A stretch of 64,000 nt of DNA from the IMG/VR virus record IMGVR_UViG_3300033148_007408, positions 6,871 through 70,870 of that record. One strand, 5' to 3'. The DNA comes from a virus. Both the position numbers and the translations under genes were made by a program. Below, in pieces: positions 530-49,496 of the stretch. Numbering within the stretch: the stretch's first letter is position 1; each line of letters opens with the position of its first letter. The notes beneath the pieces were generated by a model. It ran no database searches, had not been told where the DNA came from, and worked only from the letters and a program-made list of their open reading frames with translations.

Positions 530-3500
530 GTTTATATCCCAACTCCCTAGACACCGATCTTGAAATTGGTCGTGTTGATAATAACGTCACTGAGGTAAGC
601 GCAGATACTATCAACGAGATACGTTCTGCGATTTTTGCCATCGAGAAAGCATTAGGCGTTTCTATTCAGGGCAACGTAGCGGATCTGGTTACGAGAATCA
701 ATTCTGTTATAGACGCAAATGGTTGTATACGAGCCAGTGCACTTAACTCATCAGGTTTAATTTCTCTTCCAATTAATAATTCGCATATAGGAACCACGGC
801 TGGAATTAAAGAAAGCAAACTCGATTTAGATTTCAGCACTCAATCGCTCCAAAACTCCGTTAGTTCTCTACAAACCACTCTTAATGCCGTTTCTTCTGGA
901 CTATCCTCGTCTACAGGTCGTTTTAATACTCATGCGCTGGGATTAGGGGAATTTCATGACGGCTATCAAATAAAAACCAATCGAACTACTGGAAATGGTA
1001 TTGCCGGTCTTTCTTCTCTTACGATCGGAGACGCTCTAAATGAACTTTCTGTGCTCTTGCTTGCTGGAGACTCGATCACCACACCACATATTGATTTAGA
1101 CATTCCCTCGACAATAAAGCATATGGCCGAATCATTAGCCATAAAATCATCTTCAAGTTTCGATATTTTAGATATGTCCTCATACGATATGCAATCTGTG
1201 GTAGAAAACATAGACGCAAATCTCAAAGGCCAACAAGAAGAACACGTAGACGGCTTTCACTCTAACGGTATTTTCAAGAATATCAATGCCGGAGATTATT
1301 ACAGTTCCACACAAGAACGGTTGAGTTCTACTAGCGCCGTTACCTTTACTTCTGGAACTTCTATTATTACCATACCCGGAGTCACTTCTTTTTCGGATTT
1401 ATACATTTACTCCGGAAGCATTATAAACATAGAAGGCAGTCTCATGGATTCCGGTGCCCGCCAGATCGTAGAAACTGGTGCTTTGGCTTCGGCAGATACT
1501 TTAGGTTCTATCCCTGTCTTGAACGCCAATCAACTTTATATCAATCATGTATTCGCCGAGACCAAAGTAGCAGGAGATAACGTTTCTGCTTCCATATATG
1601 ACGCAGCTTCGATAGACAGTGAGCTTGCGCCTCTTGCTTGTGCGGTTAAAAATAATGAAACGCTGGTAGATTCCATCGCCGTTCTTAATCCTAATGCTGC
1701 GCGAATTGTAAGCCTAGGATTCAACGGGTGTATTTTGGGTGTAGATGGATATGAAATCGCAATCGAAGCCGGTTTAGACGACAGCATGGTTCGCGGCTTG
1801 ACCATCGAAGACCTCAATGTAAATCGACTGGGCGAACATGCTGGATCAGTAAGTGCAAAAACAGTTGCCGAGCGAATAAATGCCTTTGTGTCCGATCCTA
1901 CACTCGGTTATCACTTTCCCATTACTGCTTTCGAGGTTGGTAATGAACTAGTAATAGCACACAACTTGGTCGGCCCCCAATATACACTAAAAATATTGGA
2001 CGGATACACTGGAAATTACGCTACGGGATTTGATGCCAGTGGAGCAGATTTATTAGACAGGGTTATTTACGGAAACAATAATAACACATATAGCGTCAAT
2101 GGCGTTTCTCTTAATACACTCAAAACTGTCTTTTCCGGCACATCTACTCTTTCCGGCGCTTCTACTGATATTCCATTATTTGATTCTGACGGAAACAGTG
2201 CTGATCCAACTTTGCTGGGGATACAGGCTGGAGATATTTTACACATAACCAAACACACCGATCTAGACACCAATGGAAGTTATACTATTGCGTCTGTCTC
2301 TTCTTCCGCCATTTCTGTTTACGCGGCTGAAACAATAGCGATAGATGCCAGTTTTAATATTTCTGTAACCAGCTCTTTTGTGTCTCTAAATGATTTACAA
2401 AGCGGAACTGAATCTAAAAGAGGACTAGTATTAACTTACGTAGATGAAGACGGATATACTTTCTTCAAGCAACGAGCCCAGTATGCTACTTTGGGTAGTA
2501 ATATTGAAGTAATTAATGTATCTGCCAACTTCCCAATAGGCGATGTGACTGTGGCGATAACTGCCAGTGGTGATTCAAGATTGTTTAACATCATATACGA
2601 CAGTGTATCCGGCGTAACTAAAACCGCTCATCATAATTTTGCTGGAACCTTTAAACTATATCACACCAATAACATAGATTACATTACCATAAAATCTGCT
2701 GGGAATATTTCTGTCGCGTCGGAGACTCTTTCAATTTATAGAGCCATGAACGACGATGAGGCGATGGAATTGTGCGTTGTTCATTTTGATGGTTCTACTG
2801 GTATTACTAATTTAATTGATTCGCGACTTTTTGGTAATCTGGCTGGCGATCAAATAAGAGATGATTTTGTAGAGACATTTAGCGAGCGTCCATTTTCAGA
2901 GCTTCGGTCGAACGGCGTTGTTCGTGGTTTTGATTTGATGGATCTTGCCTATACAGATTCAACTACCGGAATGCATGCTTTACCTCTTACTGGTGGTGTT
3001 GCATATATTGACGGAACCAGATGTGAGGTGGAAACGCAAAAAGTAATAGTGCAATCATACAATGAAGGATTCGAGTCGTTGGATGGATATAAAGTAATAG
3101 GAATTAATGGGCACGGAACAATAAAAGCATATTCTGACGAACTAGGAGAGATACTTTCAGACGGTTATAATTCTGACTCTCAATTCGGAAAAATATTGCC
3201 GTTGTATAGATTGACAATGATAGATGGTTTAATTTATTCTGTAATAGATTTACGCTTCTTTATTAACAACCTCGACAGTAAAATAGATTTAATAGTAGAT
3301 CCGACTAATAACAGGGTTGGCAACTTCAATACACTAGAGGGTGCGTTGCTTTATGCTGAAAATTATCCCAGTGCCGAAAAACTCAAAATACAAATACTAG
3401 GCCCAGTAACTGCTAGTGGTCCTTTACATATTCCCACCGGAGTATCTATTGTTGGTGGTGCTGCATTTGGAGGCATGAATAGAGTTGACGGCGAAATAGG

Positions 3501-6853: not shown

Positions 6854-6878
6854 AATCTATCAATAATCCGAATACAGT
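6854..6878 (+). promoter_or_regulatory. Promoter-like motif, class 1, copy A
   Basis: The stretch AATCTATCAATAATCCG is followed at once by AATACAGT. The same 17 bases occur before the GIY-YIG gene, and a one-base variant occurs before the 52 kb endonuclease operon. TACAGT would serve as the -10 box. A TTGAAA overlapping the 5' end, 18 bases upstream of it, could act as -35, but that element is not conserved in the other copies. Here it stands about 80 bases upstream of an endonuclease relic and would now also feed the sheath gene. Confidence 0.55.
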
Positions 6879-7118: not shown

Positions 7119-9710
7119 ATGTCGCCTAACATAGCCGGTACCACTGGGTACGTAAGTCCTAATACCTACTCACGAGTACGAACAATCCGCAGAAGCGTAA
7201 GTATTCCAGGTGGTCTTCGTATCACTTGTATAGTTGGCTTGGGAGAGTCGACCGAAACAGTTGTACTATCCGCAAAAGGAGCCGGCGAAGATGGTGTAAA
7301 TCCAGACTACGCTGCTTCCAATGCGCCTGATGGTCGGCATTTTGAGTTGTCTAAAACCACTCTCATAGCACAACGCTCCACGATACTTAAAAACAGTATC
7401 CCTCTCGCTGGCGTTGAACAGACCATAAGCACTAACACTTTCGACAGTCGTTATGATTATCGCATGGAACCTGCTACTGGTCGAGTGGAACTTCAACGAG
7501 CACATTTGGTCGATCAAGGTGGGTCAGATTTTGTTACGTCTTCTGCCAACGTAGGTGATGGTACTATTTCGCTTCTAAATCTTATTGATGCTGACGCGCC
7601 CACTGAGACTTGGACTTTGCGCGTGACCAGTGTTATTCGAGATGCGTATGGCGATCCAATTACAGACAATGCCGTTTTCAGTGTGACGGGTTCTGTGTCT
7701 GGAACCATGTATGACGCTTACGGTGCTCCAATTGTCTTTATTAGTGATGGTGTAACCCGCGACAATACCATATTACGTGTGGCGATTACAGAAGGAACCA
7801 CCATTTTTGACAGAGGAGATAGATTTACTATCAAAGTCGATAGTGGTGTGTTAAGAAAGGGAGATCTTCTGGAGGCACGGTATATTGCCACTGAAGATTT
7901 GAACGATCCCGAGTTCTTTACAGATGCGGCGTCGTTATATGAAAAACATGGAGTCCCTTCAATTACCAACACTCTTTCGTTAGGTTCTTCGATGGCGTTT
8001 GAGAATGGAGCATTTGGTATTTTAGCACTTCAAGCTAAACCATCTTTACCGCGAAGAACTAGCGATGTGTTAATTGAGTCTAACGATCCACTCACCGACG
8101 ATACAGAGGGACTGAGCGGTTTGTTAGCTCCTCCTGTTCCCGCCAGTGGTGATGTAGATTTATTCCAATTTTCTATTGCCGGCGTTGGAGTGCCGGATAC
8201 AGACACGTCGGTTAATATCTTTGTTATAGATGCCGATAGTGGAGATGAAACGCAGATATTCCCCACGAAGACTGCATTCTATAACTCATTAATTACCAAC
8301 GATCCATACAATAATTTCATCGACAACCCAAACTATACTTATGGTTATACTGTAATTTTAGACGGCGAGGTTGAAGATGAGGGTGATGATGGCGTAGTAG
8401 TTGCTGGAACCTATAATTTCCGTGCCGACTCTGCTAGTTTTTCGAGCAGCAACTTGGATACGGGCGAAGTGGATCCAACCAAGTATGTTCGGATTTTCAG
8501 TACAGATAAGGTTGGTAATCCTGTTCCAAATATCGCCGGAACTTATATTATTGGTTCTGTTGGCGATGGCACTGGTGATGATTCGTTAGTGCGACTAGAT
8601 GCCATAGCGCCCGGAGCAAGTGGAACCCTACCGTTTGTTAGTTCTTCTTCCGATTTGCGTTGGGAGTTGATAGATTCGGCAGACGAGTCGTCTCATATTT
8701 TGTTCACTACCGACTTGAATACTGGTGGAACAATGGGGCGTGGAGATGGAATACGAGTAACCTACATCGATACTGATGATGCTGATTTCTACGACAATAA
8801 CTGGGGCGCCGCTTTAGATACTTTGGAGGCCGAAGACCTGCAGATATTGGTTCCTTTACCGACTCAAAACTTTAGTGCAATTCAACAGGCATCTAGAACT
8901 CACGTAGATTTAATGAGTAATACTGCCAACCGAAGAGAGCGTGTATTATTTACTGGTGCTCAAACTGGTGTCACTGCGCAAGCATTGTTAGGAAATGAGT
9001 TAGTGGCGGTTGAGGACATCGGGGTGCTTGAAGGAATACAAGGCGATAGTGCTGACGAGATATTGAATAATGACATAGAAGATTTGCAGGATTTCAGTAT
9101 TGCAACTAATTTTGGAGGTACTTTCCGAGTTTTATATTTGTTCCCCGATCAGATTGTACGTGCGGTAAATGGAACTAGAACCTATTTAGACGGTTTTTAT
9201 ATGGCCGCCGCTGCTGCTGGTTATATGTCTGGTAATGCCGATCTTTCTATTCCTTTGACTCGTAAGATTTTGACAGGATTTAGTATTTTGCGCGCAAGCA
9301 CTTATAACCAAAACATAATAGATTTCTTGGGCGGCGCTGGAGTTGCAGTAGTAGTTCCAGTTACGGGCGGCGGACAAGTAGTACATGGCAAGACAACCAC
9401 TTCGAGTGGTGCAGCGGAAGAAGAAGAACTTTCGGTAATCTTTATACGAGATTATATCGCAAAAGTTATGCGAACAGTTTTACAAAGTTTCATAGGTGTG
9501 CCGGAAACCGCTACATTGGTTGCAGAGATGTCCGCCAAATCTTTGAGTGCTCTTAATGCTTTGACTTCTATAAATTACATTACGAGCTTCAAGAACTTGG
9601 GTGTAAGTAGAGATGTCTCGGACCCACGACAGTTTAATATTGTTGTTGAGGTTGCGCCAAACCTTCCAGTTGGCTGGGTGTTTATCGATATAAGCGTTGG
9701 TGTGACTTAA
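7119..9710 (+). CDS. Tail sheath protein
   Basis: This 863-residue protein is the contractile tail sheath subunit, which polymerises around the tube and drives tube penetration on contraction. The C-terminal third carries the sheath hallmarks: DGFYMAAAAAGYMSGNAD (the insertion-domain hinge seen in sheath families), LTRKILTGFSILRASTYNQN, an IRDYIAKVMRTVLQSFIGVP segment, and a final beta-strand region ending in FIDISVGV that takes part in subunit handshakes. The N-terminus is IAGTTGYVSPNTYSRV. The long middle (about residues 150-600) is variable and beta-rich, making it larger than the roughly 660-residue T4 sheath. A good AAGGAG site precedes the ATG, and the tube gene follows, as expected. 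Confidence 0.93.
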   Translation: MSPNIAGTTGYVSPNTYSRVRTIRRSVSIPGGLRITCIVGLGESTETVVLSAKGAGEDGVNPDYAASNAPDGRHFELSKTTLIAQRSTILKNSIPLAGVEQTISTNTFDSRYDYRMEPATGRVELQRAHLVDQGGSDFVTSSANVGDGTISLLNLIDADAPTETWTLRVTSVIRDAYGDPITDNAVFSVTGSVSGTMYDAYGAPIVFISDGVTRDNTILRVAITEGTTIFDRGDRFTIKVDSGVLRKGDLLEARYIATEDLNDPEFFTDAASLYEKHGVPSITNTLSLGSSMAFENGAFGILALQAKPSLPRRTSDVLIESNDPLTDDTEGLSGLLAPPVPASGDVDLFQFSIAGVGVPDTDTSVNIFVIDADSGDETQIFPTKTAFYNSLITNDPYNNFIDNPNYTYGYTVILDGEVEDEGDDGVVVAGTYNFRADSASFSSSNLDTGEVDPTKYVRIFSTDKVGNPVPNIAGTYIIGSVGDGTGDDSLVRLDAIAPGASGTLPFVSSSSDLRWELIDSADESSHILFTTDLNTGGTMGRGDGIRVTYIDTDDADFYDNNWGAALDTLEAEDLQILVPLPTQNFSAIQQASRTHVDLMSNTANRRERVLFTGAQTGVTAQALLGNELVAVEDIGVLEGIQGDSADEILNNDIEDLQDFSIATNFGGTFRVLYLFPDQIVRAVNGTRTYLDGFYMAAAAAGYMSGNADLSIPLTRKILTGFSILRASTYNQNIIDFLGGAGVAVVVPVTGGGQVVHGKTTTSSGAAEEEELSVIFIRDYIAKVMRTVLQSFIGVPETATLVAEMSAKSLSALNALTSINYITSFKNLGVSRDVSDPRQFNIVVEVAPNLPVGWVFIDISVGVT

Positions 9711-9811: not shown

Positions 9812-10450
9812 ATGGCATTCGTTCCTAATACACAATCAAATATAGACAGGGGAATAGCAATTCCAACTGAAGAGGGTCGTACTAGCACCGGTCTTTCTAC
9901 TCAGGTCATAATAAAGATAAATGGGATTGCCGTTGGTGCTTTACAAAATCTTTCCGTTACTCAGACTCGTGGGTTGGGAAGAATTACCGAAATAGGGACA
10001 GATGGAAACATCGAAATAGTTCCAAATGCTGCGACCACTTTCGATCTGGAAGTTACAAGGGTGGTCTTTGATCAATTGAGGCTTCCTGAGGCTTTTTCGC
10101 GAGCTTTTCGGTTTATTAATGCCCAGCGTGTTCCGTTCGATATTGAGATTTTTGATATCGGGAATGCTTCGGACCCAGAATCTGAATCGGGCATCGCTGT
10201 CATGAAATATGTTAATTGTTGGTTTCAGCGTTATACTACCCCGTATACCTCGGACAATTATATTATTAGCGAGACGGCAACTATTTGGGCCGAAACTGCA
10301 TCAATGGCAACAGAGAACTTTTCAGTACCCAATTTGCGCACACTTGATACACAGACAGATAAATCTGGAATCGAAACAGATGTTAATCAAGGCAGACGCC
10401 GTGGAGCAATTGATGCCGCTGGTATTATCAACGCCGTATTTAGTGAGTAA
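9812..10450 (+). CDS. Tail tube protein
   Basis: This 212-residue protein is the tail tube subunit, forming the hollow tube inside the sheath. It lies directly after the sheath and has the expected beta-sandwich pattern: TQVIIKINGIAVGALQNLSV, a loop of Gly/Arg/Glu around LGRITEIGTDGNIEIV, and the strand-rich TTFDLEVTRVVFDQL, resembling tube/gp19-like folds. Its leader of about 100 bases holds a strong GGAGG site and a TATACT that could serve as a -10 box for extra transcription. No consistent -35 is visible, so that promoter is only suggested. Confidence 0.85.
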   Translation: MAFVPNTQSNIDRGIAIPTEEGRTSTGLSTQVIIKINGIAVGALQNLSVTQTRGLGRITEIGTDGNIEIVPNAATTFDLEVTRVVFDQLRLPEAFSRAFRFINAQRVPFDIEIFDIGNASDPESESGIAVMKYVNCWFQRYTTPYTSDNYIISETATIWAETASMATENFSVPNLRTLDTQTDKSGIETDVNQGRRRGAIDAAGIINAVFSE

Positions 10451-10551: not shown

Positions 10552-11115
10552 ATGGCAGAAATATCGCATGCATCAATGAAGACATCTAAAAAGCATACAG
10601 CACCAAAACCAACTGGAGAAGTGTTCGTGGTTGAGAACGCAGAGTCGGATATTTTAGAGGCCAATGAAATCGCACAGGAAGAGAAAGTAGCAGAAGCGAT
10701 TGTTGTTCCTGATTCACCACCGGAATCGCCCAATAAAAAAATGTTTGAGGATTTGGTTTTTATTGGCTGTGTTACGGACGTAATAGAAATACACGGACAT
10801 CAGTTTAAGATATCAACACTTACACATCGCGAACAAAATGATCTTATGCGCGAAATCTATAAGTTTGGAGATACAGCAGATTTATACACAGTTCGCACGA
10901 TGACTTTGGCTCAATGTTTAAGAAGTGTTGATGGTATTCCTTTTGAACAAATAGATATTAATGGAGAGTTTAAGTCAGACTATAAAAAGAAATTTGCCAT
11001 GTTAGACGGGATGCAGAACTCATTGGTGGAAAAACTATATGATTTTTACACCAAACTAGATAAAGCCGGAGAAGAAAGCATTAAAGACGAGGAAAAAGAA
11101 ATAAAAAACTCATAA
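10552..11115 (+). CDS. Tail assembly chaperone, upstream (G-like) product
   Basis: This 187-residue protein lies between tube and tape measure, the fixed position of the tail assembly chaperone that coats the tape measure during tail assembly. The first 65 residues are a low-complexity Ala/Glu/Pro arm. Residues about 65-175 form the folded part (FIGCVTDVIEIHGHQFKIST, then LTHREQNDLMREIYKFG and TVRTMTLAQCLRSVDGIPFE), and a charged helical tail follows. The end of the gene carries a -1 slippery sequence and stem-loop, so a fraction of ribosomes should make a longer fusion with the next frame, as lambda G and GT do. The class is assigned from position and the frameshift signal, since direct homology is not visible by eye. 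Confidence 0.8.
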   Translation: MAEISHASMKTSKKHTAPKPTGEVFVVENAESDILEANEIAQEEKVAEAIVVPDSPPESPNKKMFEDLVFIGCVTDVIEIHGHQFKISTLTHREQNDLMREIYKFGDTADLYTVRTMTLAQCLRSVDGIPFEQIDINGEFKSDYKKKFAMLDGMQNSLVEKLYDFYTKLDKAGEESIKDEEKEIKNS

Positions 11116-11136
11116 AGGAGCCATGGCACAGGCTCC
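11103..11136 (+). promoter_or_regulatory. Programmed -1 ribosomal frameshift signal
   Basis: The heptamer A AAA AAC is in the correct phase of the upstream chaperone frame. It is followed by a 7-base spacer and a perfect 6-pair stem, GGAGCC/GGCTCC, with an 8-base loop. The upstream stop codon TAA lies in the spacer. Slipping back one base enters a frame that is open from 11085 and continues without a stop through to 11552, giving a fusion of about 333 residues. Heptamer, spacer and stem all fit the standard layout of -1 frameshift sites. Confidence 0.9.
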
Positions 11137-11153
11137 GATGGAAACTTTGTAAA

Positions 11154-11552
11154 ATGTGGGGTGTGCCAGCAAATGATGAATGTTTTTCCCATATAAACGC
11201 GGCACAATGGATGTGGTACTACTATAGTTATTTAGAAGACAAAGATAGTGGATTTATAGATTATAGAAACTTGATTGAATATCAGGTAAGTTTCTCCGAA
11301 CCAAAAGTGATTCAAGAAATAATAAGAGAGAGGCAATCCAAAGAAGCGGAAGGATTCAATAGTACGGTGAAAGGTATGTTTGGACGAGATATAGAGTTTG
11401 GCGGAAATATTACATCTGATATGAAAAATGTAGAAGATTTGGATAGGATTCTTTCTGTTGTTGATTCAATATCTAGCCGACAAAGACAAACCAAGGACGA
11501 AACTTTATACAATTTTAACTACTGGTTGAATATTAACTTGGAGCAAAAATGA
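11154..11552 (+). CDS. Tail assembly chaperone, downstream (T-like) frame
   Basis: The frame is probably expressed as the C-terminal part of a chaperone fusion, entered by a -1 shift at 11109, and not from its own ATG. Between the shift and the ATG it reads LIKEPWHRLRWKLCKM without a stop, adding 15 residues to the 132 shown by the ATG start. No ribosome site precedes the ATG at 11154. The segment is rich in aromatic residues (HINAAQWMWYYYSYLEDKD) and ends in a helix that binds or hands over to the tape measure in related systems. A strong AAAGGAG followed by ATG at 11123 opens only a 9-codon ORF ending at 11152, so reinitiation at 11154 is an alternative. It overlaps the tape-measure start as ATGA. 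Confidence 0.8.
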   Translation: MWGVPANDECFSHINAAQWMWYYYSYLEDKDSGFIDYRNLIEYQVSFSEPKVIQEIIRERQSKEAEGFNSTVKGMFGRDIEFGGNITSDMKNVEDLDRILSVVDSISSRQRQTKDETLYNFNYWLNINLEQK

Positions 11553-14164
11553 CACCCGAGGAACTGGAAAAATTAAAAGAACTGGAAAAGATGAAAGACG
11601 TTCTGGGCGAGGTTAATAAACTTGAGGAAGCTAGGTCTATGAGTTCAGACTCGATTACTGAAAAAACCAAAGATTCAACAAGTGCCACCAAAGAGACTTC
11701 AGATGCACTATCTGTTTATTTAGAAAAATTAAAAAAAATGCGCGGTGAGGCAGAAAAGTTTGACTTAACCAAATTTTCAGAAGGTGCTAAAAATCTTAGT
11801 GCTAACATGGGCAAAATAATGTCGGACGCAGGAACTTCTATGTTGAGATCCATAGGACAAACCATGAGTTCTATTAATGAAGTCACCGAAGATGGGTCTA
11901 CTAATATAGCCAGTATTCTTAACGCCGGTATTCCGCTTGGTTTAGCTGTGATGCAGAAAAAGGCCGTTGAGACTATGAATGAGGTTATTCCATATTTTGA
12001 GAAAATGGAAAACGCTATTAAACCGGCCCAAAAACAGATTATGCAGATGACTATTCCATTTACTGATTTAAGGGACGCGGCAAAAGATGCGGGCGGAGGC
12101 TTTGCGGCCGCCCAAGAAAATGTTGCTTCGTTTAATAACTTTCTTGCCAAATCTATTCGAACTACACGAAATACGCAAGAAGTTATTATGGGTGTCTCGA
12201 AAGCGTTGGGTAAAACATTCGGCCCTGATGCTACTCGGCCATTAGAAGGCCTGATAAATGTACATAATAAATTAAATTCGGAAATGACACAGACGAACGC
12301 TGCGTTACTAATTGCGACAGCCACCGGGGCAGATCATTCGCAAATTGTGTCTATGATGGAATCGGCCTATTTGGATTTGGGCAGTAAGATAGAAAACACA
12401 ATTGGCATGTTTGGACAGATATACGAGGCGGCTACAAAATCAGGTATAGGTTTTGAACGCACCGCACAATCTATAATGAGATCTGCCCAAACATTAAAGT
12501 TTTGGGGAGGGACTATAGATTCAATTACCCCCTTGTTTAATACATTTTCCAAAAGTTTAACTGGAATAGGACGCCAAGGTTTAACCCCTGAACTTTTACA
12601 GTCTTTTGTTGGCGGACTTAACCAAATGACCTTTAGCACCAGGGCATTACTTTCTATGCAAATGCCCTCTGCTCGTGGTGGCGGATTACTTACTGGCGGA
12701 CTTAAAATGGAAGCCGCATTAGAAGGCGGGACAGAGGGAATGCGTGATGTTGTATCTTCTTTAACCAGCACTCTTAAAAAGTTTGGTGGTCCTCGAATAT
12801 TAACACGAGAACAGGCAATCGAAAGTCCAGCACTTACTCGGAACTATATGATTCAGCGACAGTTATTAGGCCAGATGATGAATATAAGCGATGTGGGCAA
12901 GCAAAACCAAATGATGCGTATTTTACAAGACATAGACAAGGGTGGTTCAGGAGCCAGCGCCACTAACGCAAATGCCATAGGGGAATTGCTAAAAGCCGGA
13001 GAAGATATAGGGAATGAAACGGTTACGGCAATTGATGAGGCTACACAAATTCTTGAGGCAGCTATCGTGAATCAGGGAGCAACAATTCGCGAAAGCATAC
13101 AAAATATGTCAAGAGAATCTGGCATGTCATTAATGATAACAGGCCTGAAAGATATAGTCGCTGATGCTGCCACAGGAAATATGAGTGCCGGGGAAATAGT
13201 CGGCAGAATAATGAAACAAATGGCAGATGCACCCAAAACAGATATCAGTGCCTTGAGTAAAACCGCCCGCATAGAGGAAAAAAAGACTGGCGCAATTAAA
13301 AAATCTGAGCGAGAAAAAGAAAGTGCCTTATCACAAGTCGAATCTGAGCTTGCTATTTACACACCACTCATGCAGATTGGCCAAAAAATTGCCGACGTTA
13401 TGAGAGAAACTGCTACGCCGGAACAAAAAGAAACATTTGAGAAGCACGGTGTTGTTCCTAGTGAGATAACAGATCTGGCTAAAGCATCATCCGCTTTTGA
13501 CATAAAGGGACAAATAGCAGAATTAAAAAAAGAAGGCGTTAGTAAGGGCGAAGAAAGACACATATCTTCTTTGCGAAAGTCACTTGATAATTTAAATAAA
13601 GGGTTAGATGCTGCGGAAAAAATGTTCGTCGGTATGGGCAAAAAAGAACGAATCAAAATATTACAACAGCCAACAAAAACCGAGAAAGGACCAATCGAAC
13701 AAAAACTAGCACCTGAAACAAGACGAGAATTAAAACTCGAACAAAAGCCGGCACCCGAAGTAAGACGAGAATTAAAACTCGAACAAAAGCCGGCACCCGA
13801 AGTAAGACGAGAATTAAAACTCGAACAAAAGCCGGCACCCGAAGTAAGACGAGAATTAAAACTCGAACAAAAACCAGTGCCTGAAACGAAACTGGTGCTG
13901 CCGATTTTTGAGAGAGACCAAAGACCGGATCTTAAAACCGAACGAATAGCACAAAGAACAGAGCAAGTTAAAGCAATAGTAGAATTAGAAATGAAAACCA
14001 AAGAACTAACAATTCCTATTAAATTAGAAGTAGAGGGAAGTACAATAACAGTGGGTGTGTCGGAAGAAGAAAAGAACAAGATAATAGAACTTGCCGTAAG
14101 TAAGGGTGCTATTAAGGCTGTCAATGATATAAGAACAATAGCCACAGAATCCGGAATGGCTTAA
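11549..14164 (+). CDS. Tape measure protein
   Basis: This 871-residue protein most likely sets tail length and passes through the tube ahead of the DNA. It immediately follows the chaperone frame and is highly helical, with long Ala/Gln/Glu/Lys stretches. A moderately hydrophobic patch lies around residues 125-145 (ASILNAGIPLGLAVM). Residues 180-470 are Ala/Gly/Met-rich helices (FAAAQENVASFNNFLAKSIR, GEIVGRIMKQMADAP further on). Residues about 716-780 hold a 14-residue tandem repeat with the unit LEQKPAPEVRRELK. No lysozyme or peptidase domain is seen. It is short for a jumbo-phage tape measure, so a second tape-measure-like protein elsewhere cannot be excluded. Confidence 0.75.
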   Translation: MTPEELEKLKELEKMKDVLGEVNKLEEARSMSSDSITEKTKDSTSATKETSDALSVYLEKLKKMRGEAEKFDLTKFSEGAKNLSANMGKIMSDAGTSMLRSIGQTMSSINEVTEDGSTNIASILNAGIPLGLAVMQKKAVETMNEVIPYFEKMENAIKPAQKQIMQMTIPFTDLRDAAKDAGGGFAAAQENVASFNNFLAKSIRTTRNTQEVIMGVSKALGKTFGPDATRPLEGLINVHNKLNSEMTQTNAALLIATATGADHSQIVSMMESAYLDLGSKIENTIGMFGQIYEAATKSGIGFERTAQSIMRSAQTLKFWGGTIDSITPLFNTFSKSLTGIGRQGLTPELLQSFVGGLNQMTFSTRALLSMQMPSARGGGLLTGGLKMEAALEGGTEGMRDVVSSLTSTLKKFGGPRILTREQAIESPALTRNYMIQRQLLGQMMNISDVGKQNQMMRILQDIDKGGSGASATNANAIGELLKAGEDIGNETVTAIDEATQILEAAIVNQGATIRESIQNMSRESGMSLMITGLKDIVADAATGNMSAGEIVGRIMKQMADAPKTDISALSKTARIEEKKTGAIKKSEREKESALSQVESELAIYTPLMQIGQKIADVMRETATPEQKETFEKHGVVPSEITDLAKASSAFDIKGQIAELKKEGVSKGEERHISSLRKSLDNLNKGLDAAEKMFVGMGKKERIKILQQPTKTEKGPIEQKLAPETRRELKLEQKPAPEVRRELKLEQKPAPEVRRELKLEQKPAPEVRRELKLEQKPVPETKLVLPIFERDQRPDLKTERIAQRTEQVKAIVELEMKTKELTIPIKLEVEGSTITVGVSEEEKNKIIELAVSKGAIKAVNDIRTIATESGMA
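13694..13889 (+). repeat. 42-bp in-frame tandem repeat in the tape measure gene
   Basis: Three identical 42-base units begin at 13736, 13778 and 13820. A diverged copy precedes them and a partial copy follows. Each unit encodes LEQKPAPEVRRELK, a charged Pro-containing helix. Exact nucleotide identity between units points to recent slippage or unequal recombination. Confidence 0.95.
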
Positions 14165-14175
14165 TGGGGCACTAA

Positions 14176-15057
14176 ATGTCAAAACCAACCATAGATCCTA
14201 AAGCCAAGGGATGGGAAAAAGCATCTAAAATAGCTCAATCGGCAGGACAGGCTCTTGCTCGATACCCGCATGTTCGATCGGGAATAGGAATAACCGATCG
14301 TCAAGGCCAAATTATGACTTGGAGACTTTCTAATGGTGATGTAATACAGATGTACATTAACCCTGAAAACTTTGTTATACGCGAATCTAAACAAATAACC
14401 TCGACTCGTACTAAGGGCGGCTTTGTTATTCAGTATTGGGGAGAAAATCTTTCTGAACTTACTTTAAGCGGAACTACAGGATCTTCTGGTGTCAAGGGTA
14501 TTAATGTTTTGCGAGGCATTTATAGAAGCGAAAATAAGGGATTTGATCTAGTAGCGGCACAACAACTTAATGATGTCCAAAACATACAACAAAGCGTGAG
14601 TTTAGGATCTAACCTAAGTGATGCGTTTGCGGATATGTCGACAGAAGTACAAAAACGAAATTTTTTACTTAGGCCTTCGTTGGCGTCGTTGGCATCTAAT
14701 ATTTTGTTATTTTATCAAGGCGACCAATGGAGGGGGTATTTTACTGCCTTTTCGGTTACTGAGAGTGTAAGCAAACTAGGTCTTTTTGATTATACATTGG
14801 CCTTTATGGCTTACGAAAAACGCGGAACAAGAAAGAACTTCCTGGCCCACCATAAAGAACCAACAGCAGACGATTTTGTTAGTAGTCTGATAAATATGGC
14901 TGGAAATGCACTAAGAGGACTTGCTAATCTCGGCAAACAAGGGCCACAACAGTATCATCCCGAGAATGCCCCTCTAACATTCGGTAGTAATCCTTTGGCA
15001 TCTGGTTTGGGTTATTCAGACGATCCACTAACTGAAAATAGAACAATATTCACATAG
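14176..15057 (+). CDS. Tail tube-baseplate junction (hub-proximal) protein
   Basis: This 293-residue protein is encoded after the tape measure and before the hub. Its core, MYINPENFVIRESKQITSTR followed by a GGFVIQYWGENLSELTLSG segment, follows the pattern of tube-initiator or LysM-less XkdP/gp53-54-like proteins: an NPE-type start, then a strand of the form 'G..xQ.WG..L..LTLSGTTG'. These link the tube to the baseplate. Middle residues (LLRPSLASLASNILLFYQGD, WRGYFTAFSVTESVSKLGLF) continue the beta-fold shared with tube proteins. The C-terminus is Gly/Pro/Asn-rich. It stops with TAG, and a GGGGC-type site precedes the start. Assignment is from pattern and order. Confidence 0.55.
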   Translation: MSKPTIDPKAKGWEKASKIAQSAGQALARYPHVRSGIGITDRQGQIMTWRLSNGDVIQMYINPENFVIRESKQITSTRTKGGFVIQYWGENLSELTLSGTTGSSGVKGINVLRGIYRSENKGFDLVAAQQLNDVQNIQQSVSLGSNLSDAFADMSTEVQKRNFLLRPSLASLASNILLFYQGDQWRGYFTAFSVTESVSKLGLFDYTLAFMAYEKRGTRKNFLAHHKEPTADDFVSSLINMAGNALRGLANLGKQGPQQYHPENAPLTFGSNPLASGLGYSDDPLTENRTIFT

Positions 15058-15064
15058 GAAAATT

Positions 15065-15928
15065 ATGGAAAAAACTAAAATCTGCGGTGGTAAATGGGGC
15101 TGCGGAGAAGAAAAACCCATATCTGAATTTCAATTCTCAAATGAGGAAAAGGGTACTTATCAAGTGCAATGTAAGAGTTGCAGAAACAAAATGCGTCGCG
15201 ATAAAACTCAAGAAAGAAAAGACAAATGGAATAAAGAAAATGGAATAACGTCTGGCGTAAACAAAAAATGCTCAAAATGTAAAGAGGTTAAGCCAGTTAA
15301 TGAATTTGGAAAACTTAATAAGAGAAAAGATGGGTTAAAAGAGCTGTGTAAGGAGTGTAAAAGAAAAGAAACAAAAGAATATCGGACTAAAAATCCCATT
15401 TCTGAAGAATGTCGGGAAATATCTAGAAGAAAAGCAAAAGAGCGACGAGCCAAAGATCCAGAAAAGTATCGGACCGAATCAAGACAGTATTTCAAAAACA
15501 ATCCAAATTATAGACTTGATTACGAGCAAGAAAGAAACAAAGATCCAATATTCAGAATTAAAAAGAACATTAGCAGGAGGATGCGTTATGCTTTATTCTC
15601 TGGCGTTAAAAAAGATTCAGCTACTAAAAACTTGGGCTGTTCTGTTCCCTTCCTCAAGCAACATTTAGTACAGCAGTTTTATTCACATCCAAAAACTAAA
15701 AAACCAATGACCTGGGAAAACTATGGAATAAAAGGATGGCATATAGATCATATTATTCCATTAGCATTTTTCGATTTAGCCGACCCAGAACAGTTCAAGA
15801 TAGCAGTTCATTATAAAAATCTTCAACCAATGTGGGCATATCAAAACCTACAAAAATCAAGTTCTTTGCCTGACAATTTATATGAACTTATGGCAGAGAT
15901 TAAACACACCATTAAGGACAACCAATGA
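15065..15928 (+). CDS. HNH homing endonuclease with zinc-ribbon repeats
   Basis: This 287-residue free-standing nuclease is inserted between two tail genes. The N-terminus has one zinc-knuckle unit (CGGKWGCGEEKPISEFQF, then VQCKSCRNKMRR). A second follows (KKCSKCKEVKPVNEFGKL, ELCKECKRKE). After a basic helical linker comes the catalytic HNH region: GWHIDHIIPLAFFDLADP and HYKNLQPMWAYQNLQ. It starts 7 bases after the preceding stop and ends with ATGA, sharing bases with the hub start, while AAGGA near its own 3' end serves as ribosome site for the hub. The gene probably spreads by cutting alleles lacking it. The relic at 6.96 kb is a paralogue. Confidence 0.9.
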   Translation: MEKTKICGGKWGCGEEKPISEFQFSNEEKGTYQVQCKSCRNKMRRDKTQERKDKWNKENGITSGVNKKCSKCKEVKPVNEFGKLNKRKDGLKELCKECKRKETKEYRTKNPISEECREISRRKAKERRAKDPEKYRTESRQYFKNNPNYRLDYEQERNKDPIFRIKKNISRRMRYALFSGVKKDSATKNLGCSVPFLKQHLVQQFYSHPKTKKPMTWENYGIKGWHIDHIIPLAFFDLADPEQFKIAVHYKNLQPMWAYQNLQKSSSLPDNLYELMAEIKHTIKDNQ

Positions 15929-43588: not shown

Positions 43589-44409
43589 AAATCGATATTT
43601 GCATAACCTCATATAGAAACGCCGAAAAACTCAAAATGTGCTTAGAGTCGATAATAGAAAAGACCAAGTTTGTCGATTACCATATTTATGTTTTGTTAAA
43701 TGACCCAAATGAAGAAATGAAAAAAGTTATCCATGATTCAATTTTTATGGGCGATGTACAATTTACCGATCGCATTACTCCGGTTTTTAATGACAATAAC
43801 AATGGTTCGTTTTCTAAAAATAATAATGAGTTAGTCGCAGAGGGCGACGGAGACCTAATTTTGTTTTTGAATGACGATATCGAGATTCAACACGATTCTT
43901 GGTTATTGAACATGACTCAAGTAACGGACAACGACCCAAATATCGGCGTTGTGGGGGCTTTATTGCTATACCCTTCAAAAAAAATTCAGCACGTCGGGGT
44001 GTTTTTTAGCGAACGAACCAACAATCTTCCCTTTCATATGTATTATCGCAAAAGCCCAAAAGAAGTTAAGGATTTCATATCTGTTCCTCGTTATTATCAG
44101 GCAGTAACGGGAGCTTGTATGTTAGTGAGAAGAAAAGATTTTGAGACATTGGGCGGGCTATGTAATGATTATTTCTATTGCTATGAAGACATACAATACT
44201 GTTTGGATGTTAGACATAAATTAAAAAAGAAATGTGTTTATACGCCCAATGCGGTTCTTATTCATCACGAAGGAATAAGCAGCTCTTCTAAAAATAACCC
44301 CCATCTACAAAAAAACATAGAAGCATTTAGGAAAAACTGTACGGGTAAATATTATAACGATTTAGAATTTTACCTATCTAATCCAAACTTCATGGTATAC
44401 AATAAATGA
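43585..44409 (+). CDS. Glycosyltransferase family 2 (rhamnosyltransferase-like)
   Basis: This 274-residue GT-A enzyme starts KIDICITSYRNAEKLKMCLE, has a donor-binding loop around FNDNNNGSFSKNNNELV, and a clear DxD in LILFLNDDIEIQHDSWLLNM. The acceptor or catalytic part includes YYQAVTGACMLVRRKDFETL and the acidic FYCYEDIQYCLDVRHKL, followed by a histidine pair (LIHHEGIS) that often coordinates or positions substrate. The same core is found inside the 854-residue enzyme encoded next, which suggests duplication. It overlaps neighbours by 4 bases on both sides. Confidence 0.9.
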   Translation: MKIDICITSYRNAEKLKMCLESIIEKTKFVDYHIYVLLNDPNEEMKKVIHDSIFMGDVQFTDRITPVFNDNNNGSFSKNNNELVAEGDGDLILFLNDDIEIQHDSWLLNMTQVTDNDPNIGVVGALLLYPSKKIQHVGVFFSERTNNLPFHMYYRKSPKEVKDFISVPRYYQAVTGACMLVRRKDFETLGGLCNDYFYCYEDIQYCLDVRHKLKKKCVYTPNAVLIHHEGISSSSKNNPHLQKNIEAFRKNCTGKYYNDLEFYLSNPNFMVYNK

Positions 44410-46970
44410 ACTCTGCTGGTGGCCCCGGATATAAATGGCGCGGTAAAAATATTCGTCTCATACAAAGGCGAAATATTGATTGCGTAACTATGCCACGAAA
44501 AGATTCTTGCGTGGTTTTAAGCGCCAAGATAAAAGCAAATACCATGTACCGCGTTAATATAACAGCGAAAAATGCCGGCGGAAATGGTTTGGTTGCTGCG
44601 AGATTTTCTTCCGGAGAGTGTGGGGCATCACCGGCATATGTAGTATCAAAAGACTTTCATACTGTGCAGATAGAGGTTTGGGTAAAAAGTATAGTTTCAA
44701 AAGATACTACCCTAGAAGTATATCGTCCCCCAAAAGCAACTGGCAATATACTCGTCAGCAATGTTTCTTTTCATATGATTAAGAAAGTTAAACCCGCACC
44801 TATTAAAAAAATAGAGGATAAGGCTACAAAAAAACGAGTGCAAGAAATAACGGCGCGACAGAATAAGTTGGAACAAAAAGAACGCGTAGATAAATTGAAA
44901 AAAATATCCGAGGCGCGAAAAATAGGTATGTCGGTCGGAAATCAGTGGCAAGGAAAGAATATACGCACAGTTAATAAGTTTGGATCCAGTTGTGCTAATA
45001 TATCGGGCTCAGACTCAATTCTTTTATTGCCAGTTGTTGTAAAACCCGACTCAATATATCGTGTGGTTATTACGGCATCTAAAGCATCAGCGTCTGGAAA
45101 TGGCGAACTATTAATAAACTTTTCTGCCGGCCGAGGTTTTGATGGACCCTTGGCGACTTTTAAGGCAAATGGTATAATACTTCGTGACTATTCTCTCAAT
45201 CTTCAAAGTCCAAAAGCAAAACCAAGCACACAAGTTTATTTAAGAGTGTGGCGGTCAAAATCTTCAGGTGCCAATATACTCATTAAAGATATTAGGTATT
45301 CTTATGTGAAAGAGGTCCAGAAACCAAAACCTAAAATTAGACCTCGACCCAAACCTCGAAGTAAAACAAAAAACAAGGAAGATAAAATAATGAAATTTCG
45401 ACCATATGCAAAAATAAAATCTAGTGTGGCGAATATGGTGAATGAGGTTTTAATCACCGATGCACTTCAAGTTCCCAAGGTGAGCATAATAACTCCAACA
45501 CGAGATAATCTAAACTTGCTTTCGAAATGCCATAAAGCGTTAGGTGAAAATACTGCTTATCCGAGCTGGGAGTGGATAGTTGGAGATAGCGATTCTACTG
45601 ACGGCACTGTAGAGTTTATGCAAAATGTGAAACGAGACAATGTAAAGTTCATAGAAAGAGGAACTACGGACGGTTCATTTTCTTCTATAAACAATGAGCT
45701 AGTGGAACAATCAACGGGAGAATATGTGCTCTTTCTTAATGACGACACGGAACCTCAACCGTTTTGGCTTTACAATATGATGTCCAAGATTCATCGTCAT
45801 CCGGAGATAGGGATAGTTGGGGCAAAATTATTATACAGTCCAGGCAGAATACAACACGCGGGAATAGCATTTATGAACGAGGGGCCAGGAAACTTGGGTA
45901 AATCTGTGTTGAAATCATTCCCCAAGGGCTTTGCCGAACACGATCGTTTTTATCAAGCAGTTACTGGTGCTTGTTTGTTAATGCGCCGTGAAGATTTTGA
46001 AGCAATTGGTGGGTTTGATTTGGAGTACTGGTTTTGCTACGATGATATGGCGCTGTGTATGAAAGTTAAACATCAATTAAAGAAAAAGATTCTATATGCG
46101 GCTAATGCGGAGGTGTTTCATCGAGAAAGCGTAACGCAAAACAAATTCAAGACGGGCGGAGAAAAACAAAAGGCGGGAATAGAATATTTTAAGAAGACAT
46201 GGATGCCCAAAGCAGAAAAAGATTTCAATAAGTATATGAAATTAGTGGGAAAAAACAAGTATCCAGTTGACATTTCCTTCGTAACTTGCGTAAATAACCT
46301 TCAGCAATACACCAATTATGTTGTGGGGTCTCTGTTTAGCAACAAAACCGGTAAAAATTATGAGATTATCCCTATTCTTAATTTCGGCAACAAATATTCA
46401 GCAGCACGAGCGTTAAATATTGGAATAGACAAAGCGAGGGGTAGTTTGATTATCCTAATACACCAAGATGTAATATTCCTCAAAGGGTGGGTTGAGATGT
46501 TATATGAACGGATTGCAGAAATAGAGAAAGAGGACAAGGGATGGGGTGTATTGGGGACAGCAGGAATAAACACAAAAGATGACACAATAGGTATAGTTTA
46601 TAATACCAAGGGAAGAGTTCAATGGCAATCCACTAGGAGAAAACGCATATGTTCTGTGCAAACAGTAGACGAGCATTGCATGATAATACGAAAAAAATCC
46701 GGATTGAGATTTGATGAGGCCTTTAATGGCTGGCATATGTATGGGCCGGACATTTGTTTGACTGCGATCCAAAAGGGAATGACTAATTATGGGATATTAT
46801 GCCCTTTAATTCACGATTCCAAATCCACTAGTTTAATTTCAGGCAAAAAAGAGTTCATGAGATACTTAAATATGCTGAATACAAAGTGGGGATCTAAAAT
46901 ACCACTGATAAGAACGCCCACATCGATAATAAAAAAGAGAGTGGCGAGAACTTTTGTGAGGTTCAAATGA
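44406..46970 (+). CDS. Multidomain glycosyltransferase: two beta-sandwich modules, GT2 and StrF-like GT
   Basis: This is an 854-residue modular enzyme. Residues 1-125 and about 178-305 are two related beta-sandwich modules, each starting W(R/Q)GKNIR and containing YRVNITAKNAGGNG or YRVVITASKASASGNG. They look like carbohydrate-binding domains. A Lys/Pro linker follows. Residues about 356-590 are a GT2 domain with VSIITPTRDNLNLLSKCHKA, LFLNDDTEPQ and FYQAVTGACLLMRREDFEAI. Residues about 620-854 are a second GT-A-like domain of the StrF/Glyco_tranf_2_5 type (DISFVTCVNNLQQYTNYVVG, IILIHQDVIFLKGWVEMLYE, QTVDEHCMIIRKKSGLRFDE). It may add two sugars in sequence. The C-terminal domain is shared with the 556-residue protein at 49.5 kb. 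Confidence 0.85.
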   Translation: MNSAGGPGYKWRGKNIRLIQRRNIDCVTMPRKDSCVVLSAKIKANTMYRVNITAKNAGGNGLVAARFSSGECGASPAYVVSKDFHTVQIEVWVKSIVSKDTTLEVYRPPKATGNILVSNVSFHMIKKVKPAPIKKIEDKATKKRVQEITARQNKLEQKERVDKLKKISEARKIGMSVGNQWQGKNIRTVNKFGSSCANISGSDSILLLPVVVKPDSIYRVVITASKASASGNGELLINFSAGRGFDGPLATFKANGIILRDYSLNLQSPKAKPSTQVYLRVWRSKSSGANILIKDIRYSYVKEVQKPKPKIRPRPKPRSKTKNKEDKIMKFRPYAKIKSSVANMVNEVLITDALQVPKVSIITPTRDNLNLLSKCHKALGENTAYPSWEWIVGDSDSTDGTVEFMQNVKRDNVKFIERGTTDGSFSSINNELVEQSTGEYVLFLNDDTEPQPFWLYNMMSKIHRHPEIGIVGAKLLYSPGRIQHAGIAFMNEGPGNLGKSVLKSFPKGFAEHDRFYQAVTGACLLMRREDFEAIGGFDLEYWFCYDDMALCMKVKHQLKKKILYAANAEVFHRESVTQNKFKTGGEKQKAGIEYFKKTWMPKAEKDFNKYMKLVGKNKYPVDISFVTCVNNLQQYTNYVVGSLFSNKTGKNYEIIPILNFGNKYSAARALNIGIDKARGSLIILIHQDVIFLKGWVEMLYERIAEIEKEDKGWGVLGTAGINTKDDTIGIVYNTKGRVQWQSTRRKRICSVQTVDEHCMIIRKKSGLRFDEAFNGWHMYGPDICLTAIQKGMTNYGILCPLIHDSKSTSLISGKKEFMRYLNMLNTKWGSKIPLIRTPTSIIKKRVARTFVRFK

Positions 46971-47713: not shown

Positions 47714-48540
47714 GTAAAAATCTAATGTCCGTTGTAATACTTAATTGGAACAGACTTGAATATTCTAAACGCACTATCGAAAGTATAATTAAAAAGATGA
47801 CCGTTCCGCATATTTTAACATTAGTGGATAATAACAGTTCCAAGCAAAGTGGTATTCGAGATTATCTTTCCAGTATAACCAAATCGAACACCAACGCCGA
47901 GGAGGTTATTCATGTATTTAACGAAAAAAATCTTGGCGTTGCTGGCGGTCGAAACTCTGGAATATGGGCGGTAGAGCAGAAAAAGTTGGAACCGACTTAT
48001 TTGTTTAATCTTGATGACGATGTACTCTTACCAGATCGGTTCGATGTATTAATGAAAGAAATATGTGATAAAGTGTTAAGGGTGGGAATAACAGGTGTGA
48101 GCGTAGAGCCAAACAAATATCCTTTAGTAACAATGAATGGAGTTAGGGTACAGTTGAAAAGACAGGGGAACTTGAATGGGGCAGCACTTTGTCTATCGCG
48201 GCGTGTTCTTTTGAGAGTTGGTTATTATGGGTTTGGAAGGGGGACTATATATGGGCACGAGGATAGCTATCTGAGGTACAAACTTGACATTCTTGGTCTT
48301 TTAAGTGCTTATATTCCTGGTCGTGGCATACATTTGGACACCGATAAGGATAAAAAATATAGAAAGGCAAAGAATCTAGCACACGTAAAAGGTTCAATGC
48401 AGCTTAACGAATTATCCGGAAGTATTGTAGAAATGCGGAAAACAAAGAACGTTTATACTTCTTATACACTGCCGGAAGAATATAACCCAGTTGACGGAAA
48501 GATTTTTACCAATGATTTAATTCTTGGTGATAGAAAGTGA
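47710..48540 (+). CDS. Glycosyltransferase family 2
   Basis: Start 47710 was chosen because ATGA overlaps the endonuclease stop and GGAG lies 7 bases upstream; an in-frame ATG at 47698 is inside the endonuclease. The GT-A pattern is clear: MSVVILNWNRLEYSKRTIES, LTLVDNNSSKQSG, NLGVAGGRNSGIWAVEQ (donor-binding motif of small GT2 proteins) and YLFNLDDDVLLPDRFD with the DxD. GTIYGHEDSYLRYKLDILGL carries the ED acidic pair. The C-terminus is helical and charged. The gene is flanked by endonucleases on both sides. Confidence 0.9.
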   Translation: MSKNLMSVVILNWNRLEYSKRTIESIIKKMTVPHILTLVDNNSSKQSGIRDYLSSITKSNTNAEEVIHVFNEKNLGVAGGRNSGIWAVEQKKLEPTYLFNLDDDVLLPDRFDVLMKEICDKVLRVGITGVSVEPNKYPLVTMNGVRVQLKRQGNLNGAALCLSRRVLLRVGYYGFGRGTIYGHEDSYLRYKLDILGLLSAYIPGRGIHLDTDKDKKYRKAKNLAHVKGSMQLNELSGSIVEMRKTKNVYTSYTLPEEYNPVDGKIFTNDLILGDRK

Positions 48541-49496
48541 TCGGAAGAAATTATGTTCCACCATTAAACAGAGATAAACTATACGATTTATATATTACCA
48601 AGCATATGCGTATGATAGATGTGGCTAAGGAATTTGGTGTATGTACTGATACAATAAGAAGAGATTTGAACAAATACAATATCCAAATTCGCAAAAGAGG
48701 TTATGGATTTTTGGTTCATCCAGAGATAAAATATTCACCCGAGCAGCTTGAGTTTTTTGACGGTTTAACGGTGAGTGATGGCAATCTAGCCAAACCGAAA
48801 CAGGGAAGGGCGTTCAAAAATTCATTTGTTAGTTGCAAGTTCAAATATGAAGAGTTTGCCGAATATATAAATGAATATTTGGATTTTAAGTGCAAAGTTA
48901 AAATGTATAGACATTATAGCGAGAGATATAAAAAAGGCTATTGCGATAATTATAATTTATACTCTCAAAATAATATATTTTTTACAAAAGAGTTGTCTCG
49001 TTGGTATCCCGCTGGAGGTGAGAAAATAGTACCAATGGATTTTAGGTTTAGCCCAATATCTATAAACATAATGTACTTGGGTGATGGTTTTATTACCTCC
49101 GGAGGCGCCGTGTTATGCACCAATTCTTTTACAGAGAGCAACTTAAATGATACATTTGTACAGTGGTTTGCTCAAATTGGAATAATGTGTGCGGTTAAAA
49201 CTGGAAACAAATTGTATTTTAATATGGAAAATACACGTAAGTTTTTAGAATATATAGGAGAATGTCCCGTTAAGTGCTATGAATATAAATGGAAAGTTCG
49301 GGAAATTGCCCATCCTACATTTATTAAGCCACTCCAAGAAGATTTATTTGAAATGTATATAGGGGAAAAAATGTCATCGCCGGAAATATCAAAAGTTTAT
49401 AAAACCAGCGCAAATGTAATATCGAGATACCTTAGGAAATACAACATCCCAGTAAGATCTTTATCCGAGGCAGTTAAGTTGGCAAAAAACAAATGA
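48537..49496 (+). CDS. LAGLIDADG homing endonuclease (LAGLIDADG_2 type), second
   Basis: This 319-residue paralogue of the endonuclease at 46.97 kb has the same layout: N-terminal HTH (DVAKEFGVCTDTIRRDLNKY), motif one LEFFDGLTVSDGNLAKPKQG, motif two INIMYLGDGFITSGGAVLC, and the FLEYIGECPVKCYEYKWKV ending. It then has an extra C-terminal HTH of about 60 residues (EMYIGEKMSSPEISKVYKTS). The first acidic motif is present, while the second is GDG instead of DDG. The start is GTG, overlapping the TGA of the preceding gene. Its own stop overlaps the next ATG. Confidence 0.88.
   Translation: MIGRNYVPPLNRDKLYDLYITKHMRMIDVAKEFGVCTDTIRRDLNKYNIQIRKRGYGFLVHPEIKYSPEQLEFFDGLTVSDGNLAKPKQGRAFKNSFVSCKFKYEEFAEYINEYLDFKCKVKMYRHYSERYKKGYCDNYNLYSQNNIFFTKELSRWYPAGGEKIVPMDFRFSPISINIMYLGDGFITSGGAVLCTNSFTESNLNDTFVQWFAQIGIMCAVKTGNKLYFNMENTRKFLEYIGECPVKCYEYKWKVREIAHPTFIKPLQEDLFEMYIGEKMSSPEISKVYKTSANVISRYLRKYNIPVRSLSEAVKLAKNK

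Follow-up and report, generated by a model that had tools for sequence, protein, structure and literature searches.

A probable programmed -1 ribosomal frameshift joining a pair of tail assembly chaperone cistrons in a phage with a contractile tail, with candidate stimulatory elements that differ among its relatives

Are the two overlapping reading frames that lie between the probable tail tube and tape measure genes of this phage two separate genes, or are they joined by a programmed ribosomal frameshift into a pair of products, G and G-T? The question arises in a stretch of 64,000 nucleotides from a virus recorded in metagenomic sequence alone (IMG/VR record IMGVR_UViG_3300033148_007408, positions 6,871 to 70,870), hereafter the window. 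The record has 102,655 bases and the window a G+C content of 37.5%, which agrees with the "large AT-rich phage" of a first-pass annotation made from the letters alone. That annotation had also proposed a product pair like G/GT of phage lambda. In lambda, gpG and gpGT come from two cistrons before the tape measure gene, and a rare -1 shift occurs near the end of the first, as described in a section of PMC5009743; the same section gives different shift directions in the tail chaperone genes of other phages, -2 in Mu and probably +1 in HSTV-2. Frameshifting of 6-7% was measured for two phage tail chaperone genes, according to a passage in PMC3711429, and PRFect, as presented in an excerpt of PMC10885494, handles chaperone frameshifts as a class.

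The genes around the locus, all on the plus strand like the locus itself, are arranged in the order sheath, tube, G, T and a long ORF in the tape-measure position, the tube and tape measure labels being partly assigned by place. The tail sheath gene (7119..9710) matches PHROG 2839 (tail sheath, E 8.8e-19). The probable tail tube protein (9812..10450) matches PHROG 985, labelled 'virion structural protein' (E 3.3e-8), and takes its tube label from gene order. The ORF at 11549..14164 (871 aa), for which no PHROG or Pfam match above noise was found, is a probable tape measure protein by its position after T and its length, and the probable tail tube initiator (14176..15057) scores above the cut-off of Pfam PF23980 (E 1.6e-6). 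A 42-nt repeat (13695-13872, 4.2 copies, 95% matches) occurs towards the 3' end of this probable tape measure gene, and an endonuclease VII/HNH-like ORF lies within the tail module (15065-15928, PHROG 1035, E 3e-21). A different ORF, homing-endonuclease-like on reading its sequence, is found between sheath and tube in a relative, L002 (2908-3705).

The zero-frame ORF, G (10552..11115, 187 aa), ends in the codons ATA AAA AAC TCA TAA and contains the slippery heptamer A AAA AAC in phase at 11103..11109. It is followed by the 7-nt spacer TCATAAA (11110..11116), which includes the zero-frame stop TAA (11113-11115), and by a stem-loop at 11117..11136, in which GGAGCC (11117-11122) and GGCTCC (11131-11136) form six perfect pairs around an 8-nt loop, ATGGCACA. 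The -1 frame, T (11109..11552, 147 codons plus stop), opens with CTC at 11109, and its stop at 11550-11552 shares bases with the ATG of the ORF that follows (11549); the predicted fusion is of 186 + 147 = 333 residues. The phase of the heptamer, the 7-base spacer, the perfect 6-pair stem-loop, the 333-residue fusion and a -1 frame open to the next gene, up to 11552, had all been read in the first-pass annotation and are borne out here, the tape measure label of that next gene being a positional one.

The heptamer alone is weak evidence, because 35 in-phase A AAA AA(A/C/G) sites are present in 46 genes (19,939 codons) of the window; the general pattern X XXY YYZ occurs in phase at 144 sites in the same genes. 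After 32 of the 35 heptamers the -1 frame is open for at most 20 codons, and after the remaining three for 557, 258 and 147 codons. The two longest of these open frames are just the next gene, entered at an ATGA overlap (49493 and 46967): A AAA AAC at 49484-49490 precedes the end of ORF 48537-49496, and A AAA AAG at 46931-46937 precedes the end of ORF 44406-46970. These two gene ends are probably cases of coupling, and a shift there would fuse each pair. The 147-codon frame is T.

Relatives of the locus were selected by protein homology and not by the heptamer. A tblastn search of named phages with G gave just three records, all weak matches (one of Eggerthella phage LE2-3 at E 0.02, two of Bacillus phage G at E 0.07), and these matches fall inside annotated tail assembly chaperone genes. 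In viral contigs, a single-sequence search with G found no relative and one with T found a single relative. The family was then opened through the structural-gene neighbours of G/T: viral contigs were queried with the tube protein and the tube initiator as well as with T and two alignments of it, which yielded 174 loci, some of which share a contig. Adding the window, L001, L179 and three loci of named records brought the sources to 180. A T homologue at E<1e-4 was found in 172/180, and 112 loci were non-redundant at 90% nucleotide identity, among which the window is counted once, as L001. Sources with no T match at this cut-off (L003, L005, L011, L014, L015, L026, L044 and L179) were excluded from every count. 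L179 was the one weak match in genome contigs, and a profile search finds no T there; in L003, which is Eggerthella phage LE2-3, the chaperone gene ends in A AAA AAA TAA. The tree has two deep clades of 49 and 63 rows, with 100% SH-aLRT each, and contigs of up to 472,749 bases imply that the family extends to very large phages.

The slip site is conserved across most of this family. A AAA AAN stands exactly at the start of T homology in 104/112 non-redundant loci, the last base being A in 81, C in 21, G in 1 and T in 1, and another 3/112 have T TTA AAG, T TTA AAA or T TTT TTA instead, in phase and one or two codons earlier. The remaining 5/112 are without an in-phase heptamer (L098, L173, L176, L178, L097). 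L098 keeps the -1 relation of the frames, with G AAA AAG in place of X XXY YYZ. L097 was considered as an in-frame G-T fusion without frameshift and rejected: at 2900-3100 G and part of T are left in one frame, and the sequence is otherwise about 100% identical to L082. Since it is the same phage as L082 minus the junction stretch, removed by an internal deletion, it is a deletion variant or an assembly error and no independent exception. The zero-frame stop follows the heptamer after 0 nt in 86/107 loci, after 3 nt in 20/107 and after 6 nt in 1/107. Given the Lys codon usage of each gene (on average 0.63 AAA), AAA in all the heptamers would have a joint probability of about 10^-41, a figure that presumes independent loci whereas the loci are in fact related; genes with AAA shares as low as 0.17-0.25 still use AAA at the slip site. 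The signal of the window had been called unusually clean, and this is half right, as most relatives are equally clean at the heptamer and the closest one in the tree, L002, has no perfect stem.

If T were instead a separate gene, it would be translated by coupling at the ATG at 11154, and the heptamer would be incidental in an A-rich gene end. A gene caller does give an ORF from this codon (11154..11552, 132 aa), A-rich heptamers are common in the window (the 35 sites in 46 genes), and coupled overlaps exist in it, namely the ATGA at 49493 and 46967. However, the protein homology of T sets in immediately 3' of the slip site and reaches 15 codons 5' of ATG 11154; the residues EPWHRLRWKLCKMWGVP at its start are identical in the window and L002. 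Between slip site and ATG, variable columns among ten loci of the window's subclade number 6, 1 and 12 of 15 at -1-frame positions 1, 2 and 3, and this coding ahead of ATG 11154 is evidence against a T gene starting there. Moreover, many relatives have no T-frame start codon until 35-116 nt 3' of the heptamer, inside the homology. A clear Shine-Dalgarno sequence is lacking at 11154, as had been noticed before: the anti-SD duplex energy is -3.3 kcal/mol, which 28% of random positions equal or exceed, a weakness that is not decisive because 15/46 listed ORFs of the window are weaker still. The ORF from 11154 thus probably has no independent start, and we consider the chance that T is a separate gene almost negligible. 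A run of As can serve transcriptional as well as ribosomal slippage, and RNA polymerase slipping on it would join the frames into the same product; seven consecutive As are found in 81/112 loci. The window has six As and a C, however, as do 20 other non-redundant loci, and the conserved phase, the zero-frame stop at 0-6 nt, the downstream RNA structure and the upstream Shine-Dalgarno-like element (both described below) are features of ribosomal slippage. We regard slippage of the polymerase as very unlikely.

In a frameshift of the lambda type the G part would be expected to have a tail assembly chaperone fold. G was modelled by AlphaFold2 on 52 aligned sequences (mean pLDDT 84.1). Against viral models (BFVD) the G model gave six matches at E <= 0.001, two of them phage G gp181/182 and one named TAC; the tail assembly chaperone of Rhodococcus phage Finch was matched at E 5.5e-8 and Bacillus phage G gp181 with TMt 0.81. 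The HK97 tail assembly chaperone 2ob9 ranked first among 621 chains (Z 7.4, 99 residues, rmsd 3.9), with YqbN 3klu at Z 6.9 and the following row at Z 4.3; a Z near 7 is rated middling by the structure-comparison tool. Foldseek of G against the PDB returned nothing at E <= 0.001, a profile search of G against PDB sequences returned two matches, both at chance level, and the G and T of the window match no PHROG or Pfam family at E <= 0.001. Among 53 aligned G-family members that were scanned, 4, 3 and 1 match PHROG 2992, 2792 and 344, all labelled 'tail assembly chaperone'. A tail assembly chaperone fold is thus supported for the modelled G, and we annotate its ORF accordingly. The T model, likewise made on 52 aligned sequences (mean pLDDT 85.9), is helical, and Foldseek of it against the PDB gave no useful match.

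Downstream of the slip site, the stem-loop of the window is a probable stimulator. Of 20,000 random window positions, 0.015% have a perfect 6-bp stem in which five or more pairs are G-C, with a spacer of 5-9 and a loop of 3-9. RNA 11110-11150 folds at -12.5 kcal/mol vs -7.2 in dinucleotide shuffles (z -2.40). The site also has a z of -3.03 (p 0.02) against synonymous shuffles, in which codons are permuted among the synonymous positions of each T gene and the peptide is preserved. By this control the region just 3' of the slip has a mean z of -2.37 in the 47 testable rows of the window's clade (p<0.05 in 28/47, with 19/47 falling short) and of -0.93 in the 60 testable rows of the sister clade (14/60). 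At 50, 100 and 150 nt into the T frame the mean z is -0.20, -0.04 and -0.06 in the window's clade, and ranges from -0.20 to +0.18 over both clades. In the window's clade, RNA folding just 3' of the slip site is therefore above codon-shuffled controls, and the stems are unrelated between lineages: different and longer stems occupy this place in L047, L074, L009 and the L091-L096 group.

The frameshift could be real and the stem still be a by-product of the conserved peptide EPWHRLRW rather than a selected RNA element, as the pairing strands encode EP and RL(R). L002, joined to the window in the tree, forms 5/6 pairs without excess folding (z +0.25), and L059, near the window, has no perfect stem and no excess folding; both retain the peptide and lose pairs. 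All six GGAGCC/GGCTCC pairs can be formed in 23/44 loci inspected. For a test of the helix, 32 rows judged to share it were retained and 12/44, with another stem or none, were dropped, a choice that favours the helix; in these 32 selected rows 94.3% of cells pair vs at most 54.2% when slid, and two of the six pairs change on both sides, the other four varying on one side only. Covariation in the same selected rows is 0.224 vs 0.185 shuffled, with 1/500 shuffles as high, which speaks against a by-product, as do the excess folding of the clade under a shuffle that preserves the peptide and the strong folding just 3' of the slip site (z -3.9 to -6.1) of L047, L074, L009, L091 and L094, whose peptides or stems are others. 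We thus find it rather unlikely that the stem arose only from the peptide.

Upstream of the heptamer, loci of the sister clade mostly have a Shine-Dalgarno-like AAGGAGGT, 12-14 nt 5' of the heptamer and inside the G gene; AAGGAGGT stands at a fixed distance from the slip site in L036 (where the downstream stem is not significant), L039, L100 and other loci of that clade. The 60 nt 5' of the heptamer contain, over 107 loci, 41 copies of AGGAG; 33 copies end exactly 14 nt ahead of the heptamer. In the 44 loci with the peptide KE, the codon is AAG for 30/44 Lys vs 150/503 at the other Lys of these genes (P 9e-7), and GAG for 38/44 Glu vs 209/742 (P 1e-14), both P values being too small because related loci are not independent. 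A duplex energy <= -8 was obtained for 36/60 sister-clade loci vs 4/47 in the window's clade; the window itself has -5.9 kcal/mol vs -4.0 shuffled (p 0.37), which is not significant. Most single-locus p values for the element are not small, because the peptide KEV allows few synonymous choices, and its support comes from the pooled codon test. The element can hardly serve initiation of T, since T homology follows the heptamer and the first start is usually well downstream. With set cut-offs, 12/107 loci have both this element and a hairpin. We do not claim a trade-off between the two: Spearman's coefficient is -0.40 (107 loci) but Fisher's p is 0.15, four independent pairs on the tree go the same way as a trade-off and one the opposite way, and the contrast is mainly one deep split.

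G and T stand in a +1/-2 relation in three of the loci without an in-phase heptamer, L173, L178 and L176; L177, from a different sample, is identical to L176. AAA AGT is common to their G/T junctions, at 2995-3017. In L176 no more than 14 nt (2995-3008) can hold the frame switch, and the homology already covers its first T-frame start codon, at 3058. A tRNA-Lys slipping by +1 would move from AAA to AAA and re-pair fully, and a -2 slip would re-pair fully in none of the three loci. As L173 and L178 are sisters (99%) and L176 is without a firm place in the tree, the direction of frameshifting has apparently changed once or twice inside one G/T family. Compared with the difference between Mu and HSTV-2, this change is found within a single family that is recognisably homologous.

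How does the site compare with known systems? With lambda G/GT the window shares two overlapping cistrons between genes labelled tube and tape measure partly by position, an in-phase heptamer at the overlap and T coding from the slip site. The likeness is one of arrangement and not of compared sequences, the lambda slip sequence is G GGA AAG, unlike A AAA AAC, and the window phage has a contractile tail. Bacillus phage G has homologous G and T, its T being 30% identical to that of the window, and reads TTA AAA AAC TAG: its zero-frame stop comes immediately after the heptamer A AAA AAC, and its -1 frame aligns with the window T; its depositors annotate gp181/gp182 as a joined CDS, 'tail assembly chaperone'. 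Among the named phages recovered, this one alone combines the heptamer of the window with a homologous T frame. Unlike the window, it has no significant downstream stem (z -0.06), nor a strong upstream Shine-Dalgarno element, and its genome is of 497 kb. In E. coli dnaX the stimulators are an upstream Shine-Dalgarno element and a downstream hairpin, as a part of PMC3711429 states. An A-rich heptamer with a downstream hairpin is shared by the window, and the upstream Shine-Dalgarno-like element by the sister clade; the window has the hairpin without a significant upstream element, and is thus not of the dual type. Whereas dnaX has both helpers at one site, in the G/T family they are mostly in different clades. 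In the literature searched, mainly freely accessible papers, we found no study of stimulators being replaced within one homologous family of tail chaperones.

We conclude that a programmed -1 ribosomal frameshift very probably joins two tail assembly chaperone cistrons in this contractile-tailed phage, as judged from sequence comparison and modelling. A frameshift of the lambda G/GT type is supported by the conservation of the heptamer, by T homology from the slip site onwards and by the fold of the G model, which is that of a chaperone, and the proposed product pair is consistent with the gene order as well. Most ribosomes would stop at TAA 11113 and release G (187 aa). In a minority, the stem-loop 7 nt 3' of the heptamer would help tRNA-Lys and tRNA-Asn on AAA AAC to slip back by one base and pair again with AAA AAA, and G-T (333 aa) would be made. 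By analogy with lambda, many copies of G and few of G-T may coat the tape measure protein, and the T domain may recruit tube subunits. We infer from these comparisons that the shift happens, and with what efficiency, that the stem has this role and that G and G-T act in this way here.

The window site is a well-supported added case of a long-known device, and its relatives, compared with one another, tell more than this one site. For annotation it means that gene callers would give T a false ATG start in such phages. For the family, there is in our judgement about an even chance that the G/GT frameshift has been kept throughout and the elements that tune it replaced, with hairpins (several of them unrelated) in one deep clade, Shine-Dalgarno-like elements mostly in the other, and a direction changed from -1 to +1 (or -2) at AAA AGT in a small branch; the selected trait would then be the G:GT ratio rather than one given RNA element. 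The relatives amount to a natural experiment, with more than 100 homologous frameshift sites that have a hairpin, a Shine-Dalgarno element or neither, and they allow one to ask whether phages keep the G:GT ratio constant while swapping the signal.
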